From Symbiobacterium thermophilum IAM 14863 (GTDB lineage Bacteria > Bacillota > Sulfobacillia > Symbiobacteriales > Symbiobacteriaceae), in the NCBI RefSeq assembly GCF_000009905.1, contig NC_006177.1:62001-126000 (forward strand): a stretch of 64,000 bases of DNA. The letters are read 5' to 3'. The notes beneath the pieces were generated by a model. The model had not been told where the DNA came from. It saw only the letters and a list, made by a program, of their open reading frames with translations, and searched no databases. The translations under genes and the position numbers were made by a program. Below are positions 26,729-37,194 of the stretch, in pieces. Positions within the stretch are counted from its first letter, which is position 1, and each line of letters begins with the position of its first letter.

Positions 26729-27487
26729 GTGCAGCGCAGGGGCAACTGGCAGCGCATCGACTGGAAGAAGCCGCACAGCGCGGCCGGCCGTGGCGCCGCA
26801 GGCGGCGTGAGCCGCCGGGTGCCGGGGGTTGCCGGGTTGCCTCCGGTGGTCGTGGGACTGCTCATCATGGGTCTGGTGCTCGGCGCCGGCTACCTGGGCT
26901 GGCGCCGGGCCGTCACGCCCGCCGCGCCCGCGGGGGATCTTCCGCCCGCGCGCGGCGGGTTTCTTGTCGCACCGCCCGCCGGACCGGCCGCGTTCTTTGC
27001 CGGGGTGGACGAGCCGGGTGAGCCCGGGGACCGGGCCGCGCGCATGGCCCGCTGGCGGCAGGCGGCCGAGGCGGTGGTGGCCGCCCGGGGCGGGGCGGGG
27101 ACGGACCTCACCGGGGCTTTCGCCTGGCCCGTGACGGCGCCCATCAGTTCCCCCTTCGGCCCCCGGTGGGGGCGTCACCACAACGGCATCGACCTGGCCG
27201 CGGACCACGGGGAGCCCATCCGGGCCAGCCGGGCCGGCGAGGTCCTGCTCGCGGGCGAGGTGGAGGGATACGGCCTCACCGTGGTCATCGGGCACGACGA
27301 CGGTACCCGTACCCTGTACGCCCACGCCTCGGCGCTCCTGGTGGAGGCCGGGGAGTGGGTGGAACAGGGGCAGCCCATTGCACGGGTCGGCTCCACCGGC
27401 AACTCCACCGGTCCGCACCTGCACTTCGAGATCATCGTCGGTGACCGGCCGGTCGACCCGCTGGACTATCTCCCTCCCCGGGAGTAG
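26729..27487 (+). CDS. Membrane-anchored M23 (LytM-type) peptidase
   Basis: 252 residues, GTG start. A basic N-terminus is followed by one membrane segment (PPVVVGLLIMGLVLGAGYLGW), a Pro/Ala-rich linker, and an M23 domain over about residues 130-250. The zinc-binding residues are all present: HHNGID (H-x3-D) and GPHLHFE (HxH). It is therefore likely an active peptidoglycan endopeptidase facing outward, unlike the degenerate M23 at 59778. It is followed by a cluster of DnaA-box-like sites. Confidence 0.88.
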   Translation: MQRRGNWQRIDWKKPHSAAGRGAAGGVSRRVPGVAGLPPVVVGLLIMGLVLGAGYLGWRRAVTPAAPAGDLPPARGGFLVAPPAGPAAFFAGVDEPGEPGDRAARMARWRQAAEAVVAARGGAGTDLTGAFAWPVTAPISSPFGPRWGRHHNGIDLAADHGEPIRASRAGEVLLAGEVEGYGLTVVIGHDDGTRTLYAHASALLVEAGEWVEQGQPIARVGSTGNSTGPHLHFEIIVGDRPVDPLDYLPPRE

Positions 27488-27490
27488 CGA

Positions 27491-27541
27491 CTATCCACGC
27501 ACATTTCCACATTCGAAGCGAACTTATCCACAATATCCACA
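27491..27541 (+). promoter_or_regulatory. Cluster of four same-orientation DnaA-box-like 9-mers
   Basis: CTATCCACG (27491-27499), ATTTCCACA (27503-27511), TTATCCACA (27524-27532, a perfect consensus box) and ATATCCACA (27533-27541) lie within 51 bases, all on the same strand. The consensus is TTATNCACA. An A+T-rich stretch with TTGACA follows at 27550. No replication gene is adjacent, so this looks like a non-origin DnaA-binding cluster. Confidence 0.6.
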
Positions 27542-27675
27542 CACCCCTGTTGACAAATTTTCGTACAAAATGGGACTCCCATACCGAGGCAGAACGGCAC
27601 CGCCAACTTGAACGAAACTATGGGGTCGTCGGTAGGACCCCTGCCCTGGAATTTTGGACTGACGAACGATGTCGA

Positions 27676-27709
27676 AAGGGGACCGCCTGCGTTCGGCAGG
27701 GGTCCCCTT
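27676..27709 (-). terminator. Bidirectional hairpin terminator
   Basis: AAGGGGACC and CCTGC pair with GCAGG and GGTCCCCTT around one bulged G and a 5-base loop. It lies between the plus-strand M23 gene and the minus-strand acylase gene and could serve both. Confidence 0.75.
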
Positions 27710-27734: not shown

Positions 27735-30203
27735 CTAGCCGCCGGCCCCCGCCTGATCAGGCAGAAGCCGCAGGGCGCGGCCGGTCCGGTAACCGTGGAA
27801 GTTGCGGGTGATCAGCTCGCCCCGGCTGTGCATCGCCGACTGGTCGTCGTAGTGGGGGCTGAGGAAGTGGCCGGACTGGCCCGGCGTCACGATGGAACGG
27901 CTGTTGCCCGTCGGGTCGGCCAGGTCGACCACCTGGCGCCAGGGCGCAAAGGTGCGCACCATGCCGTCGCCGCCGAAGGACATGGCGCCGACGGTGACGC
28001 CGCTGCCGCCGATGGGATACGACGTGGGGTTGAGCAGCCAGCCCAGCGGCGTGGCCGCCGCGCCCACGGGATGCGGCGGCTGGAGCCGGTGGTACCTTCC
28101 CCACGACCAGCGGCCGGGGTCCGACCCCTGCAGGGCGACGGCCCGGTCCACCGCGGCCTGCAGCGAGTCCGCCGCCAGTTTGTCCAGACCGCCCGCGGCC
28201 TCGATCCAGCCGTTGGGCCGGCCCTCGGCCGCCGCCAGCAGGGCCATGTCGGTCACGTTGCCCTTGTCGGCCATGCGCCTGTACAGCTCTTCGCCCATCA
28301 GCGGTTCGTAGAGCATCCGGGTCAGCTCGCTCCACCAGAGGTGGAAGATCAGCGGCTGGGGCTGGTCCGCGCTGTCCACCATGTCCCAGGACTTCAGGAG
28401 CTCGACCGCGGTGGCCGCCGTCCCGGTCACCCCGGCCCGCTCCACCGCCGGCAGCAGTACCGGCAGCAGGGTGCGGGCGTGCAGGTTGGCGTAGTCGACC
28501 TGCATCGCCTGCATGTCGTCCGCCGTGAGGTCGCCCAGCTTCGCCTCGATCATCTCGGCGATGCGCATGGCCCGGTAGGGCTGCGACCACGAGTAGGTCA
28601 GGAAGTAGGGATAGGCGTCGTCGATGACCTTGTTGTTGGCGGTGACGATGTAGCCCTCAGGCGGGTTCACGGCCTCCGGCATCTGGTCGAAGGGGATGAA
28701 GCCGACCCACTCGTACTCGTCGGTCCACCCCGGCACCGGAAGCAACCCGTCGCCGCTGCGCCGGATCGGCACCAGGCCGCCGGTGCGGTAGGCGATGGTG
28801 CCATCCACGTCGGCGTAGACGAAGTTCTGGGTGGGCACGTGGAAGGAGCGCAGGGCTTCCCGGAACTCCTCCCAGTTCCGCGCCTTGGGGAAGAGCAGCA
28901 CCGCCTCCAGCTCCGGGGTGGCCATGTGGGCGGTCCACTTCAGCGCCAGGGCTTCCTCCGGCCGGTTGTCGGGATCGCCGACGACCTCCGAGATGATCGG
29001 CCCGTGCCGGGTGATCACCACCTCAAAGGGAACGGGGTCCTGTCCCTTCACCCCGATCAACTCCCGGTGGACGAGAGCGTCCTCCCAACGGCCCATGTAC
29101 TCGAACTGGTACGGGTTGTCGGGGTTGCGCCGCTCGATGTACAGGTCCTGCACGTCGGGATTGGTGTTGGTCACGCCCCAGGCGATGCGCTCGTTCTGTC
29201 CGATGACGATGCCCGGCGCGCCGGGGAACATCACGCCGTAGGCGTTGATCATCCCCGGGACCACCAGGTGCTGCTCGTACCAGATGGACGGGGTGCGGGC
29301 GCCCAGATGCGGGTCGTTGGCCAGGAGCGGCTTGCCGGTGCGGGTCCCGGAGCCGGCGACGACCCAGTTGTTGGAGCCCCGCCCCTCGTCGGGCACGCGC
29401 AGCAGGGCCAGCAGGCCGGTGAGGTCAAGGCTGGAGCCGGGCGGCCGGGCCCCGGCGACGGCAGAAGCGCCGGGTCTGGGCTCCTCTGCCCCTTCGCCGC
29501 CGCGGTAGCGGATCATGGTGATGCCGTCCTCGGGGTATACGGGCATCAGCTGGTCGGCCAGTTCCGGCCCCACCTGGTTGCGCAGCTGCAGCCGGTAGAC
29601 CTCGGCCTCGAAGTTCCCGCCCAGGTCGTAGGCCATGATCTTGCCGATCAGCGCCGAGTCCACGGGGCTCCAGGGCTCGGGTTCGTAACCGAGGAGGAGG
29701 AATTCCACCGGCAGCCGGTTCTGGGCCTTCGCCTCCGCGATGAAGGCGTTGACGCCGGCGGCGTAGGCCTCCAGCAACTCCCGGGCCCAGGGGCCGTACG
29801 ACTGGACGGAAGCCTCCGCGGCCCGGCGCAGGTTCAGGGCCCGGAAGAACTTGTCCGTCTCCAGCTGGCTGGGCCAGATGACCTCGGCCAGCCGGCCGGC
29901 GGCTGCCCGGCGGGTCAGGTCCATCTGGAACAGGCGGTCCTGGGCCACCACGTACCCCTGGGCCATGTAGAGATCGTGCTCGTTCTGGGCTTCGATGTGC
30001 GGGACGCCCCACTCGTCCCGGTACACCGTGACCGGCGCCCGGAGGCCCGGCAGGACCAGCTCCCCGCTCGCCCGCGGCAGGCTGCGCCGGGCGACGGCGT
30101 AGCCGCCCGCCACCGCCAGCAGCAGAAGGACGACGAGGGTCAGGGCGGTGTAGCCGATCCAGCGGGTCACCCTCCGCGTGCGCCGCTGCACTACGACTGA
30201 CAT
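27735..30203 (-). CDS. Penicillin-acylase-family amidohydrolase (active-site intact)
   Basis: 822 residues. It has an N-terminal membrane segment (YTALTLVVLLLLAVAGGYAV), then an alpha-chain-like region (VYRDEWGVPHIEAQNEHDLYMAQGY region), then the autoprocessing site and nucleophile Ser277 in EGRGSNNWVV. Downstream, LLANDPHLG and GQNERIAWGVTN are conserved beta-chain motifs. Family members self-cleave to expose the N-terminal Ser and hydrolyse amides such as penicillins or acyl-homoserine lactones; the natural substrate is unknown. ATG 30203 has GGGGGATG just upstream, inside a hairpin. It is one of two tandem acylase genes on this strand. Confidence 0.9.
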   Translation of the reverse strand: MSVVVQRRTRRVTRWIGYTALTLVVLLLLAVAGGYAVARRSLPRASGELVLPGLRAPVTVYRDEWGVPHIEAQNEHDLYMAQGYVVAQDRLFQMDLTRRAAAGRLAEVIWPSQLETDKFFRALNLRRAAEASVQSYGPWARELLEAYAAGVNAFIAEAKAQNRLPVEFLLLGYEPEPWSPVDSALIGKIMAYDLGGNFEAEVYRLQLRNQVGPELADQLMPVYPEDGITMIRYRGGEGAEEPRPGASAVAGARPPGSSLDLTGLLALLRVPDEGRGSNNWVVAGSGTRTGKPLLANDPHLGARTPSIWYEQHLVVPGMINAYGVMFPGAPGIVIGQNERIAWGVTNTNPDVQDLYIERRNPDNPYQFEYMGRWEDALVHRELIGVKGQDPVPFEVVITRHGPIISEVVGDPDNRPEEALALKWTAHMATPELEAVLLFPKARNWEEFREALRSFHVPTQNFVYADVDGTIAYRTGGLVPIRRSGDGLLPVPGWTDEYEWVGFIPFDQMPEAVNPPEGYIVTANNKVIDDAYPYFLTYSWSQPYRAMRIAEMIEAKLGDLTADDMQAMQVDYANLHARTLLPVLLPAVERAGVTGTAATAVELLKSWDMVDSADQPQPLIFHLWWSELTRMLYEPLMGEELYRRMADKGNVTDMALLAAAEGRPNGWIEAAGGLDKLAADSLQAAVDRAVALQGSDPGRWSWGRYHRLQPPHPVGAAATPLGWLLNPTSYPIGGSGVTVGAMSFGGDGMVRTFAPWRQVVDLADPTGNSRSIVTPGQSGHFLSPHYDDQSAMHSRGELITRNFHGYRTGRALRLLPDQAGAGG

Positions 30204-30207
30204 GGAT

Positions 30208-30236
30208 CATCCCCCACGTGAAGATGGTGGGGGATG
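30208..30236 (-). promoter_or_regulatory. Hairpin enclosing the acylase Shine-Dalgarno
   Basis: CATCCCCCAC and GTGGGGGATG form a perfect 10-bp stem with a 9-base loop. On the minus strand the 3' arm GTGGGGGATG is the ribosome binding site of the gene starting at 30203. The stem could limit translation, or act as a weak terminator for the upstream acylase gene. Confidence 0.5.
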
Positions 30237-30279
30237 TATTCGCCGCGCTATTTCGATATACCTGTCAAGAGGGTGCGGG

Positions 30280-32502
30280 CTAAGGCACGAGCCGCAGGAC
30301 GTCCTCCCCGGTCGGGCGGGGCGGGAGCAGATCGCCGCGGAGCCACGGCAGGAGCTGCGCGGCGAACGACGGGTCGAGGGGGTGGCCCCCTGTGCCCGGG
30401 GCCAGGACGGCGACGGGCTCGCCGGGCCGGGCCAGGTCCACCAGCCGGCAGTAGGTGGTGGCGGTGGTGACGGTGCCGGACATCGTCGGATCCAGGCCGC
30501 TGCGGTGGAGCGTCGCAGGGCCGCCGCCCAGCGGGTGCGGACCCAGGTCCGCGAGCGGGCCGAGGGCGGGCAAGGCCTCCGCGAGACTGTGCCGGAAGCG
30601 CACCCGGTGTTCCCGACCCCACGCCCAGCGCTCCGGGCTCCGCCCCTGACGGGCCGCAAGGTAGGCCACGGCACGCCGGAACGCCGACAGGGCCAGGCGA
30701 GGAAGGCCGAACTCGCCTTCCAGCGGCAGCCAAGGGCTCTCCTCGCCGCGCAGGGCCCGCAGGATCAACTGCTCCGCCGCGCCCTGGCCGGACGGCGTCA
30801 TGATGAACTGGTTGAAAAGGGTGAGCCCCAGGCGGGGCCGGAAGATCGCTTCCACCAGGTCGAAGTACCAGCGCTCCCACAGGCATGCGCCGGCGGATCC
30901 CGCCGGCTCCTCGTGGCTCCAGTCGGAGAGCAGGAGCAGGGCCCGCTTCTCCAACTCCGTGAGCGATTCCGGCCGGGCGCCCTGACGGAGCCCTTCCTGG
31001 AGAGTCTGAAGCAGCGGCTGGAGCAGGTTCCGGGCTTGCATGTTCACGGTATCGCCGGGCAGCCGGGCCAGGAACGGCAGCGTCCAGCCCGTCCGGGACG
31101 CGGCCACCTCCCGGATCCGCGCCGCCGCGTCCGCCGGGCGGCCGCCCAGGGCGATGCCGTCCTCGGGGTTGACCTCCTCCCGCAGCTCCGGGCCGGTCTC
31201 AAGCCGGGCCACCGTGCCGTCCACACCGGCGTAGATCACGGTGAGCCCGGGGACGGCCCATTCCCGGACGGCGTCGCGAAACTCCTCGTACGACCGGGCC
31301 AGGTTGATCCCCAGGAGCGCCGCCACCTCCTGCCCCGGCTGAAGGACCGGGGAGCGGAGGGCCGCCGCGCCGCTCTCGTCCATGGCCACGACGGGGCCGG
31401 AGTGGCCGATCAGGACCGTGTGGGCCACCGGCTCGGCCCGGCCTCGCACGCGGATCGCGGTCAACTGGCTCCGGACCCCTTCGGACGGCTCGGGCACCAA
31501 CCGGGCCGTGCCGCCTTCCGACGGGGCCAGCGCCCAGGCGAAGTGGCGGGACTGTCCCACCAGGAGCCCGGGCAGCCCGGCCAGGGCGATCCCTTCCAGC
31601 CGGGCTCCGCCCGGCCCGTGCAGGGTGAGCGGGTGAAGCGGCGACGGGGCGCGCGGGGCCGTCTCCAGGCTGCACCCGGCGATGGGGAGGCCGGATTCCG
31701 TGCGCGTGCCGGCCAGCGCCCAGGCCGTCCCGCCCGAGACCGTCTGCGGCGCCCACATCGCCAGCCGGCACAGGCCGCCGAGGTCGGGGAGCTGTTGCGG
31801 GTCAGGCGGGGATGCGTCGGAAGGTCCGGGCGCATACAGGGCCGCGGCCATCTCCGGGCCGGCGACCTGCGCCACCCGGGCCCGGACCACGACGTCGGCC
31901 ACGGGCGGCGCCAGCTCAAAGGCCAGCAGCTTGGCCACGGCCAGCGAGTCGACGGCGCGCCAGGGCTCCGGCCGGAGGCGCGCCAGGGCGAACTCCGGCG
32001 GCAGCTTTCCCGCGCGGATGAAGGCGTTGACGCCGTCGGCATACGCCTCCAGGCAGGCCCGCACCTCGTCCGGGCAGTCGGCCAGGGCCCGTTCGGCCAG
32101 CCGGTACAGGCCCAATGCGCGCATGAAGCGATCCCGCTCCAGGCAGGACTCCCCGCAGAGTTCCGCCAGCCGCCCTGCCGCCGTGCGGCGGGCGACCTCC
32201 ATCTGCCACAGCCGTTCCTGGGCCGCGACGAATCCCTGCGCCTGGAAGAGATCGTGCCAGTTTTCGGCGGCGATGTGCGGCGCGCCGCCTTCATCGCGGC
32301 GGACGGCCGCCGGCGCCCGCAGGCCGTCCATGCGGACGGTTCCCCGCCCCTGCGGGCGGCTCAGCTGCAGGCCGGCTAAGGCGGCGGCCGCGGCGAGGCC
32401 CGTGAGCAGGGCCAGAGCGTGCAGGACCGGCGCACCGGTGGCCAGCGCGGCGAGCAGGAGCACGACGAAGATCGCGCCGGCCAGGCCAAAGAGGCGAAGC
32501 AC
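30280..32502 (-). CDS. Divergent penicillin-acylase paralog, catalytic Ser replaced
   Basis: 740 residues, GTG start with GGAGGTG upstream. Two N-terminal hydrophobic segments precede a full-length acylase fold (RRDEGGAPHIAAENWHDL, AQGFVAAQERLWQMEV). At the nucleophile position, where the neighbour has GSNNW, it reads GGTAW (Gly258-Thr259). The NDPH motif is degraded to CSLET. Later GQSRHFAWAL is partly kept. Autoprocessing by Ser is therefore impossible; either Thr259 substitutes or this is a non-catalytic relative. It lies upstream of the intact paralog in the same direction. Confidence 0.85.
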   Translation of the reverse strand: MLRLFGLAGAIFVVLLLAALATGAPVLHALALLTGLAAAAALAGLQLSRPQGRGTVRMDGLRAPAAVRRDEGGAPHIAAENWHDLFQAQGFVAAQERLWQMEVARRTAAGRLAELCGESCLERDRFMRALGLYRLAERALADCPDEVRACLEAYADGVNAFIRAGKLPPEFALARLRPEPWRAVDSLAVAKLLAFELAPPVADVVVRARVAQVAGPEMAAALYAPGPSDASPPDPQQLPDLGGLCRLAMWAPQTVSGGTAWALAGTRTESGLPIAGCSLETAPRAPSPLHPLTLHGPGGARLEGIALAGLPGLLVGQSRHFAWALAPSEGGTARLVPEPSEGVRSQLTAIRVRGRAEPVAHTVLIGHSGPVVAMDESGAAALRSPVLQPGQEVAALLGINLARSYEEFRDAVREWAVPGLTVIYAGVDGTVARLETGPELREEVNPEDGIALGGRPADAAARIREVAASRTGWTLPFLARLPGDTVNMQARNLLQPLLQTLQEGLRQGARPESLTELEKRALLLLSDWSHEEPAGSAGACLWERWYFDLVEAIFRPRLGLTLFNQFIMTPSGQGAAEQLILRALRGEESPWLPLEGEFGLPRLALSAFRRAVAYLAARQGRSPERWAWGREHRVRFRHSLAEALPALGPLADLGPHPLGGGPATLHRSGLDPTMSGTVTTATTYCRLVDLARPGEPVAVLAPGTGGHPLDPSFAAQLLPWLRGDLLPPRPTGEDVLRLVP

Positions 32503-36126: not shown

Positions 36127-37194
36127 GTGAACGTGGAGCGCCTGGTGCAGGGTACGCGGGTCCTGGAGGTGGACCCCGCCGATCCGGAGCCGGAGGTGGT
36201 CGCGCAGGCGGCGGCGATCCTGCGCGCCGGAGATGTGGTGGCGTTCCCCACGGAGACCGTCTACGGCCTGGGGGCCAATGCCCTCAGCAGCGAGGCCGTG
36301 GCGCGCATCTTCGCGGCCAAGGGCCGCCCGTCCGACAACCCGCTGATCGTGCACATCGCCGATACGGCGCAGCTGGAGGGGCTGGTGGAGTCGGTACCGC
36401 CGACGGCTGAGCGGCTCATGGAACGCTGCTGGCCCGGACCGCTCACGCTGGTCATGCGCAAGGGGCCCGCCGTTCCGCCGGAGGTGACCGCCGGGCTGGA
36501 CACGGTGGGCATCCGCATGCCGGACCACCCTGTGGCCCTGGCTCTGATCCGCGCCGCCGGCGTTCCCATCGCCGCGCCCAGCGCCAACGCATCCGGCCGG
36601 CCGAGCCCGACCACGGCCGAGCACGTCCTGGAAGACCTGGCCGGGTCCATCCCCGCCGTGCTGGACGGCGGAGAGACCGGCGTGGGCGTGGAGTCCACGG
36701 TGCTGGACATGACGACCGACCCTCCGATGATCCTCAGGCCCGGCGGACTGCCCCGGGAGGAGCTGGAGGCGGCCATTGGCCCGGTGGTGCTGGCCCCGGG
36801 CGTGGAAGGCGGAACGGTGGAACGCCCGCGCTCGCCGGGGATGAAGTACCGTCACTACGCGCCCCAGGCGCCGCTGATCCTGGTGGAGGGCCCGGTGCTG
36901 GAGATGCAGGAGAAGATCCGCGACCTGGCCATGGAGTATGCGGAGGAGGGGAAGCGGGTCGGCATCCTCTGCAGCGCCGAAAGCCGCGGCGTCTACGTGG
37001 CGCCGGTGATCCTCGAGTACGGGGCCAGGGGGGATCTGGCGGGCATCGCCAGCGACCTGTTCGGAACGCTCCGGGCCTTCGACCGGCACCAGGTCGACGT
37101 GATCCTCGCCGAAGGGGTGCCGGAGGAGGGGCTGGGGCTTGCCATCATGAACCGCCTGCGCCGGGCCGCGGGCGGCCGGGTGATCAGGCTATGA
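36127..37194 (+). CDS. ywlC: Threonylcarbamoyl-AMP synthase, Sua5/YwlC type
   Basis: 355 residues, GTG start after GAAGGGGTGG. The YrdC fold begins with VVAFPTETVYGLGA and AKGRPSDNPLIVHI, with SANASGRPSPT forming the substrate pocket. An extra ~130-residue Sua5 domain follows after the linker KYRHYAPQAPL. It makes threonylcarbamoyl-AMP for tRNA t6A37 modification. It overlaps the next gene by four bases (ATGA). The 158-base gap before it holds two weak inverted DnaA-box-like 9-mers (35988-35996, 36005-36013) and no clear gene. Confidence 0.95.
   Translation: MNVERLVQGTRVLEVDPADPEPEVVAQAAAILRAGDVVAFPTETVYGLGANALSSEAVARIFAAKGRPSDNPLIVHIADTAQLEGLVESVPPTAERLMERCWPGPLTLVMRKGPAVPPEVTAGLDTVGIRMPDHPVALALIRAAGVPIAAPSANASGRPSPTTAEHVLEDLAGSIPAVLDGGETGVGVESTVLDMTTDPPMILRPGGLPREELEAAIGPVVLAPGVEGGTVERPRSPGMKYRHYAPQAPLILVEGPVLEMQEKIRDLAMEYAEEGKRVGILCSAESRGVYVAPVILEYGARGDLAGIASDLFGTLRAFDRHQVDVILAEGVPEEGLGLAIMNRLRRAAGGRVIRL

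Follow-up and report, generated by a model that had tools for sequence, protein, structure and literature searches.

The window, the whole stretch of 64,000 nucleotides that was analysed (C1:62001-126000 of the single-contig, 3,566,135-bp chromosome of Symbiobacterium thermophilum), carries a cluster of DnaA boxes at C1:89491-89541, between the 3' ends of convergent genes for an M23 peptidase and a penicillin amidase (Table 1). All four plus-strand 9-mers that the sequence-only reading had placed within 51 bases were present, one of them a perfect TTATCCACA, and the surroundings, which it had described as G+C-rich, have a G+C content of 68.2% across the window. That reading contained neither the fifth, inverted box nor the conservation of the site. 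Folding of the downstream hairpin against shuffles gave -31 kcal/mol and a z of -3.9, and a strict terminator scan did not report it.

Table 1. Features at the cluster and sites compared with it (positions are those of the window unless a locus is named)
Feature	Position	Strand	Remarks
M23 peptidase gene	26729-27487	+	ends just before the cluster
DnaA box 1, CTATCCACG	27491-27499	+	box scan; same register in family genomes
DnaA box 2, ATTTCCACA	27503-27511	+	box scan; starts 12 bp after box 1
DnaA box 3, TTATCCACA, perfect	27524-27532	+	starts 21 bp after box 2
DnaA box 4, ATATCCACA	27533-27541	+	abuts box 3 (9 bp start to start)
Inverted DnaA-box-like 9-mer, TTGTCAACA	27548-27556	-	6-bp gap after box 4, facing the pair
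A+T-rich tail	27557-27571	no strand	conserved in the family
G+C-rich hairpin	27678-27707	+	terminator-like, without a clear T run
Penicillin amidase gene	27735-30203	-	convergent; 3' end lies past the cluster
Repeat copies with exact TTATCCACA	735-743, 2849-2857 (two of five); L001, L002, L004, L006, L007
E. coli K-12 DARS1 boxes	L129:608, 622, 634	+, -, -	bioD-uvrB gap
E. coli K-12 DARS2 boxes	L119:636, 650, 662	+, -, -

A Sua5/YwlC-like gene lies 8.6 kb past the cluster (window 36127-37194). In B. subtilis a strong DnaA site is described upstream of ywlC, and the neighbourhood may be a shared one. The motif TGTCGAA occurs at 27670-27676, some 120 bp past the cluster and next to the hairpin, and is present in four of the five family genomes by alignment. 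It is the Spo0A-box consensus according to the accessible text of PMC5295017, and we leave it as a lead, because it adjoins the hairpin and was found by alignment only.

The sequence-only reading had allowed for similar clusters being frequent by chance, and this did not turn out to be the case. Of 60 dinucleotide-shuffled versions of the window, not one contained even three same-strand boxes (at most two mismatches to TTATCCACA) within 51 bp. The strict pair TWTCCACAN{0,25}TWTCCAC had three matches genome-wide, one at oriC and two overlapping ones at the cluster, and its reversed-pattern control had none in the whole genome. Exact TTATCCACA occurs eight times genome-wide, five of these being inside near-identical copies of one repeat. 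When looser boxes were allowed in a scan covering 314 kb of the 3,566-kb genome, three other places qualified, namely oriC, the region upstream of dnaA, and a site at C1:~141.8 kb.

The Bac_DnaA_C domain has a single match in the genome, at C1:1099-1302 (dnaA), and the dnaA-dnaN gap contains boxes TTATCCACG, TTTTCCACA and ATATCCACA from C1:1467. GC skew was positive in all 11 sampled stretches between 1 bp and 1.61 Mb and negative in all nine from 1.9 Mb to the end; the switch at dnaA places oriC there. Within the window, 14 of 16 4-kb blocks were positive, the two negative blocks being at 4-12 kb. From the coordinates of dnaA and of the window, the cluster is about 88 kb from the dnaA-dnaN gap with no replication gene adjacent, in line with the earlier statement that it lies away from such genes. 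The genome of G007, a member of another family of the order, is also assembled in one contig; its site (C1:2927670-2927708) and its dnaA (3022025-3023401) are about 94-96 kb apart, on the opposite side of dnaA relative to the S. thermophilum cluster. Distance from the origin thus seems to be better kept than the chromosome arm (n=2).

We found the element in all eight genomes of the order sample, which consists of five genomes of the family and three (G005, G006, and G007) of another family. Conservation in relatives, proposed earlier as a check, was therefore borne out. In the family the element is syntenic and its spacing is unchanged: the cluster follows the M23 gene in all five genomes, glpX lies upstream in four (none is on the G003 contig), and the amidase lies downstream in four (the G001 contig ends first). 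The pattern TTTCCMCAN{11,13}TTAYCCMCANTAYCCACA has precisely one match per family genome, in all five, and none in 149 other genomes of the class (reversed control, 0/154); since it was drawn from the five family sequences, what is informative is that no genome has a further copy and that the rest of the class has none. A search of genome contigs with the M23 protein made no new order member visible: the best locus, of 7,671 bp, is as long as the G002 contig, and the other 10 of the 11 loci were more distant M23 matches.

In the other family, boxes 3 and 4 and the inverted box of G007 directly follow the M23 gene, and G005 combines five forward boxes with the inverted one, behind a Na+/H+ antiporter gene that is itself located after M23. 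The G005 element precedes a hairpin and then an L31-like gene; the G006 element, on another contig, is 92% identical to that of G005. Two adjacent penicillin amidase genes (window 27735-32502) separate the S. thermophilum cluster from the L31-like gene, and because this gene comes directly after the cluster in G005, it looks as if one family had gained the amidases by insertion or the other had lost them. The element is kept by selection at the same place in the order genomes, the case of G006 being judged by sequence.

An ungapped alignment anchored on box 4 shows box 3, box 4, and the inverted box at matching positions in all eight genomes. Positions -51 and -39 from box 4 hold boxes in both families, with the exception of G007, where boxes 1-2 are absent; G001 at -51 and G002 at -39 have sequences outside the box criterion used. 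The inverted box has one or two mismatches in every order genome. Its form in G001, TTATCAACA, is also the invariant box of a second conserved cluster, which supports the inverted box as a real variant.

Mean identity between families was 0.82 for boxes 3-4 (the anchor) and 0.76 for the inverted box, with 0.86 and 0.84, respectively, between family genera. The inverted box did not serve as an anchor, so its conservation is no product of the alignment. The box 1-2 segment (0.38 between families and 0.81 between family genera) and the A+T-rich tail (0.40 and 0.77) are conserved within the family. The 6-bp gap before the inverted box gave 0.38 and 0.48, the gap between boxes 2 and 3 gave 0.26 and 0.29, and the outer flanks gave 0.25 and 0.31 between families, with 0.25 as the composition-based expectation, and 0.28 and 0.29 between family genera. 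In the family, the box 2-3 gap has kept its length and not its sequence. The sequences are few and related, so these values are descriptive; boxes conserved while flanks and inter-box gap are at chance level constitute a footprint of selection.

The second cluster (L012:15722-15782, C1:~141,722-141,782) lies between the divergent genes fliW and hpf and has been retained by each of the five family genomes, its boxes being spaced by 12 and 9 bp; the G004 contig that carries it has hpf at a distance of about 4 kb. The hpf loci of G005, G006, and G007 showed no such cluster. The second cluster may have a promoter role. G007 has another three-box cluster (L068:5660-5690, C1:~1,123,660 of that genome), far from dnaA and followed by a hairpin-like repeat.

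Judged by its sequence, the site is a real, conserved extra-oriC cluster with a fixed three-box core, which is a known kind of element; several DnaA boxes lie close together outside oriC, as in the clusters of B. subtilis. The rarity of the cluster and its conservation across the order give strong support to the sequence-only reading of a DnaA-binding cluster away from the origin. Of the three roles which that reading had listed, titration and control of the nucleotide state of DnaA are both candidates; transcriptional control lost ground, as discussed below. The site probably helps to time replication and is not a chance motif, because the box spacing is precise and is kept in every related genome examined; binding itself is predicted. 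The explanation that we favour, and consider fairly probable, is a conserved non-coding DnaA-binding element of the order, which would capture DnaA outside oriC, much as the B. subtilis clusters and E. coli datA do, and be duplicated soon after initiation. We infer DnaA binding, cooperativity, and a negative effect on initiation from established DnaA biology.

DnaA would assemble head-to-tail on boxes 1-4, that is, on an oriC-type pair (1-2) and an abutting pair (3-4), and would meet the inverted box. Since the element is about 88 kb from oriC, it should be duplicated soon after initiation, within the first few per cent of a replication round. The extra copy would divert DnaA, probably in its ATP form, from the new origins; the lowered DnaA there would help to prevent premature re-initiation. 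In B. subtilis, removal of six extra-oriC clusters led to early initiation, and removal of single clusters had a weak effect, according to the available part of PMC5295017. Some points weigh against this explanation. Head-to-tail titration needs sites only and leaves the inverted box unexplained, the spacing fixed across the order suggests a defined complex beyond the needs of plain titration, and a five-box site could have room for only a few DnaA molecules. The weak effect of single-cluster removal in B. subtilis counts against it as well, as do the lack of boxes 1-2 in G007 and their low identity between the families.

The inverted box is central to a rather doubtful alternative, in which the site would act like a DARS: ADP-DnaA dimers would meet head-to-head on box 4 and the inverted box, ADP would leave and ATP enter, which would make the element an order-wide Bacillota site of DnaA nucleotide exchange or assembly with DARS-core-like geometry. 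Two head-to-tail boxes face the inverted box across a 6-bp gap in all eight order genomes, which is the DARS orientation (facing boxes I and II, with III behind II) in mirror image. The DARS1 and DARS2 cores of K-12, which we took as the published cores from their arrangement and not by matching coordinates to papers, have two facing boxes separated by 5 bp and a third one placed 12 bp farther back, and this spacing differs from that of the cluster, whose third box is at 9 bp. Opposed boxes are described as a key feature of DARS in the accessible part of PMC8682772, and boxes I and II so placed are said to allow head-to-head contact that releases ADP (PMC8682772 and PMC5742627, as excerpted). 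The inverted box of the cluster, however, carries mismatches in every order genome; passages of PMC13220808 report DARS1, DARS2, and datA as absent from B. subtilis; and the B. subtilis site 3' of gcp is described, in excerpted text, as preferring ATP-DnaA. A pattern that admits the facing triple matched in 29 of 398 Bacillota genomes (reversed control, 0/398), at 30 loci for 31 places; one locus is the window, 18 have no dnaA, dnaN, or rpmH in reach, and 11 of the 30 are within 1.5 kb of one of these genes. The geometry thus occurs outside origins but also in origins, and by itself is no proof of reactivation. A role like that of datA, with stimulated hydrolysis of DnaA-ATP, is unlikely: same-direction boxes and proximity to the origin agree with the description of datA in the available text of PMC5742627, but the inverted box is present (four forward boxes plus the conserved inverted one), and the IHF-binding site expected between boxes was not found, the best match in the cluster region having three mismatches against none in the datA control.

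DnaA is a known transcription factor, and a TTGACA follows the boxes in S. thermophilum, which would suit DnaA-controlled transcription of a flanking gene or a small RNA gene. We regard this as decidedly unlikely, because the cluster lies between gene 3' ends, a scan between 27300 and 27900 gave no promoter-like match, and a strong hairpin follows. The TTGACA is not kept in the family alignment, and the sequence between element and hairpin is poorly conserved. In G005 the next gene is co-directional, but a hairpin stands in between. As for an RNA element, Rfam had no match at the gathering threshold in the window, and the folding of the element is not stronger than that of shuffled sequences (z -0.06). 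That the site is a second origin of replication, or was one formerly, is highly improbable. Boxes followed by an A+T-rich stretch would fit an origin, and boxes 1-2 have a pair form in common with oriC: NTCCACSSN3TTTCCACA, a pattern written to fit both places, matches oriC in the five genomes whose origin was read, apart from a single position in G003. With minor deviations it also fits the cluster of all five family genomes, and it had no further match in ten loci scanned. The cluster repeats this origin-type module, yet it is not an origin: the skew switches at dnaA and not near 89 kb, and no replication gene adjoins. Equally hard to credit is a chance cluster without function. In favour of chance, boxes counted singly at one mismatch show no enrichment in the window (11 found against 7.7 expected), so that the clustering is the point; clustering, register, and order-wide conservation contradict chance.

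Four of the 18 non-origin triples are at one position, 3' of tsaD (gcp), at site 1501-1532 of L138, L139, L140, and L141, with Pfam identification of the locus on L138 only. They belong to four genomes of one other Bacillota family and recall the gcp cluster of B. subtilis; the positions of extra-oriC clusters may thus be long-lived.

To our knowledge, little is known of chromosomal sites that control DnaA outside E. coli. In the literature searched, we found no description of a DnaA-recharging or -discharging locus in Bacillota, and no report of the element in that on Symbiobacterium DnaA, Firmicutes DARS, and extra-oriC clusters, most subscription papers being outside its scope. Whether B. 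subtilis has regulators that balance ADP-DnaA and ATP-DnaA is called unknown in the accessible part of a 2026 review (PMC13220808). If the DARS-like reading were true, the site would serve as a chromosomal switch in Bacillota, one for recharging or discharging DnaA, and would be duplicated right after initiation. On any reading, a compact element of fixed register amid drifted flanks offers a ready test fragment from another Bacillota order and shows which box spacings selection kept, and natural variants exist with five forward boxes (G005 and G006) and with two (G007).

The extra-oriC DnaA-box clusters of B. subtilis, reportedly treated by Okumura et al. 2012, are like the S. thermophilum site in lying outside oriC in a Bacillota chromosome. 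There are six of them, against one strict and one looser cluster found in S. thermophilum, and their gene context differs; the comparison is one of descriptions, not of sequence layouts. One B. subtilis cluster is, like the S. thermophilum site, flanked by the 3' ends of two genes (gcp/ydiF), and a strong DnaA site is placed 3' of gcp, both according to the available text of PMC4447404. The datA locus of E. coli is described in part of PMC5742627 as having essential boxes in the same direction and an IHF site, and its effect is said to require nearness to oriC. Like datA, the S. thermophilum site is non-coding, near oriC, and has several boxes in one direction; unlike datA, it has no IHF-like site and has a conserved inverted box. 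With the DARS1 and DARS2 cores, it shares, as a mirror image, two closely spaced facing boxes, one of which has a third box at its back, and it differs from them in its further upstream boxes and its position near oriC. The Streptomyces DnaA-box cluster, in another phylum and likened by description rather than layout, is also extra-oriC and is reported, in the excerpts of PMC5742627, to repress untimely initiation.
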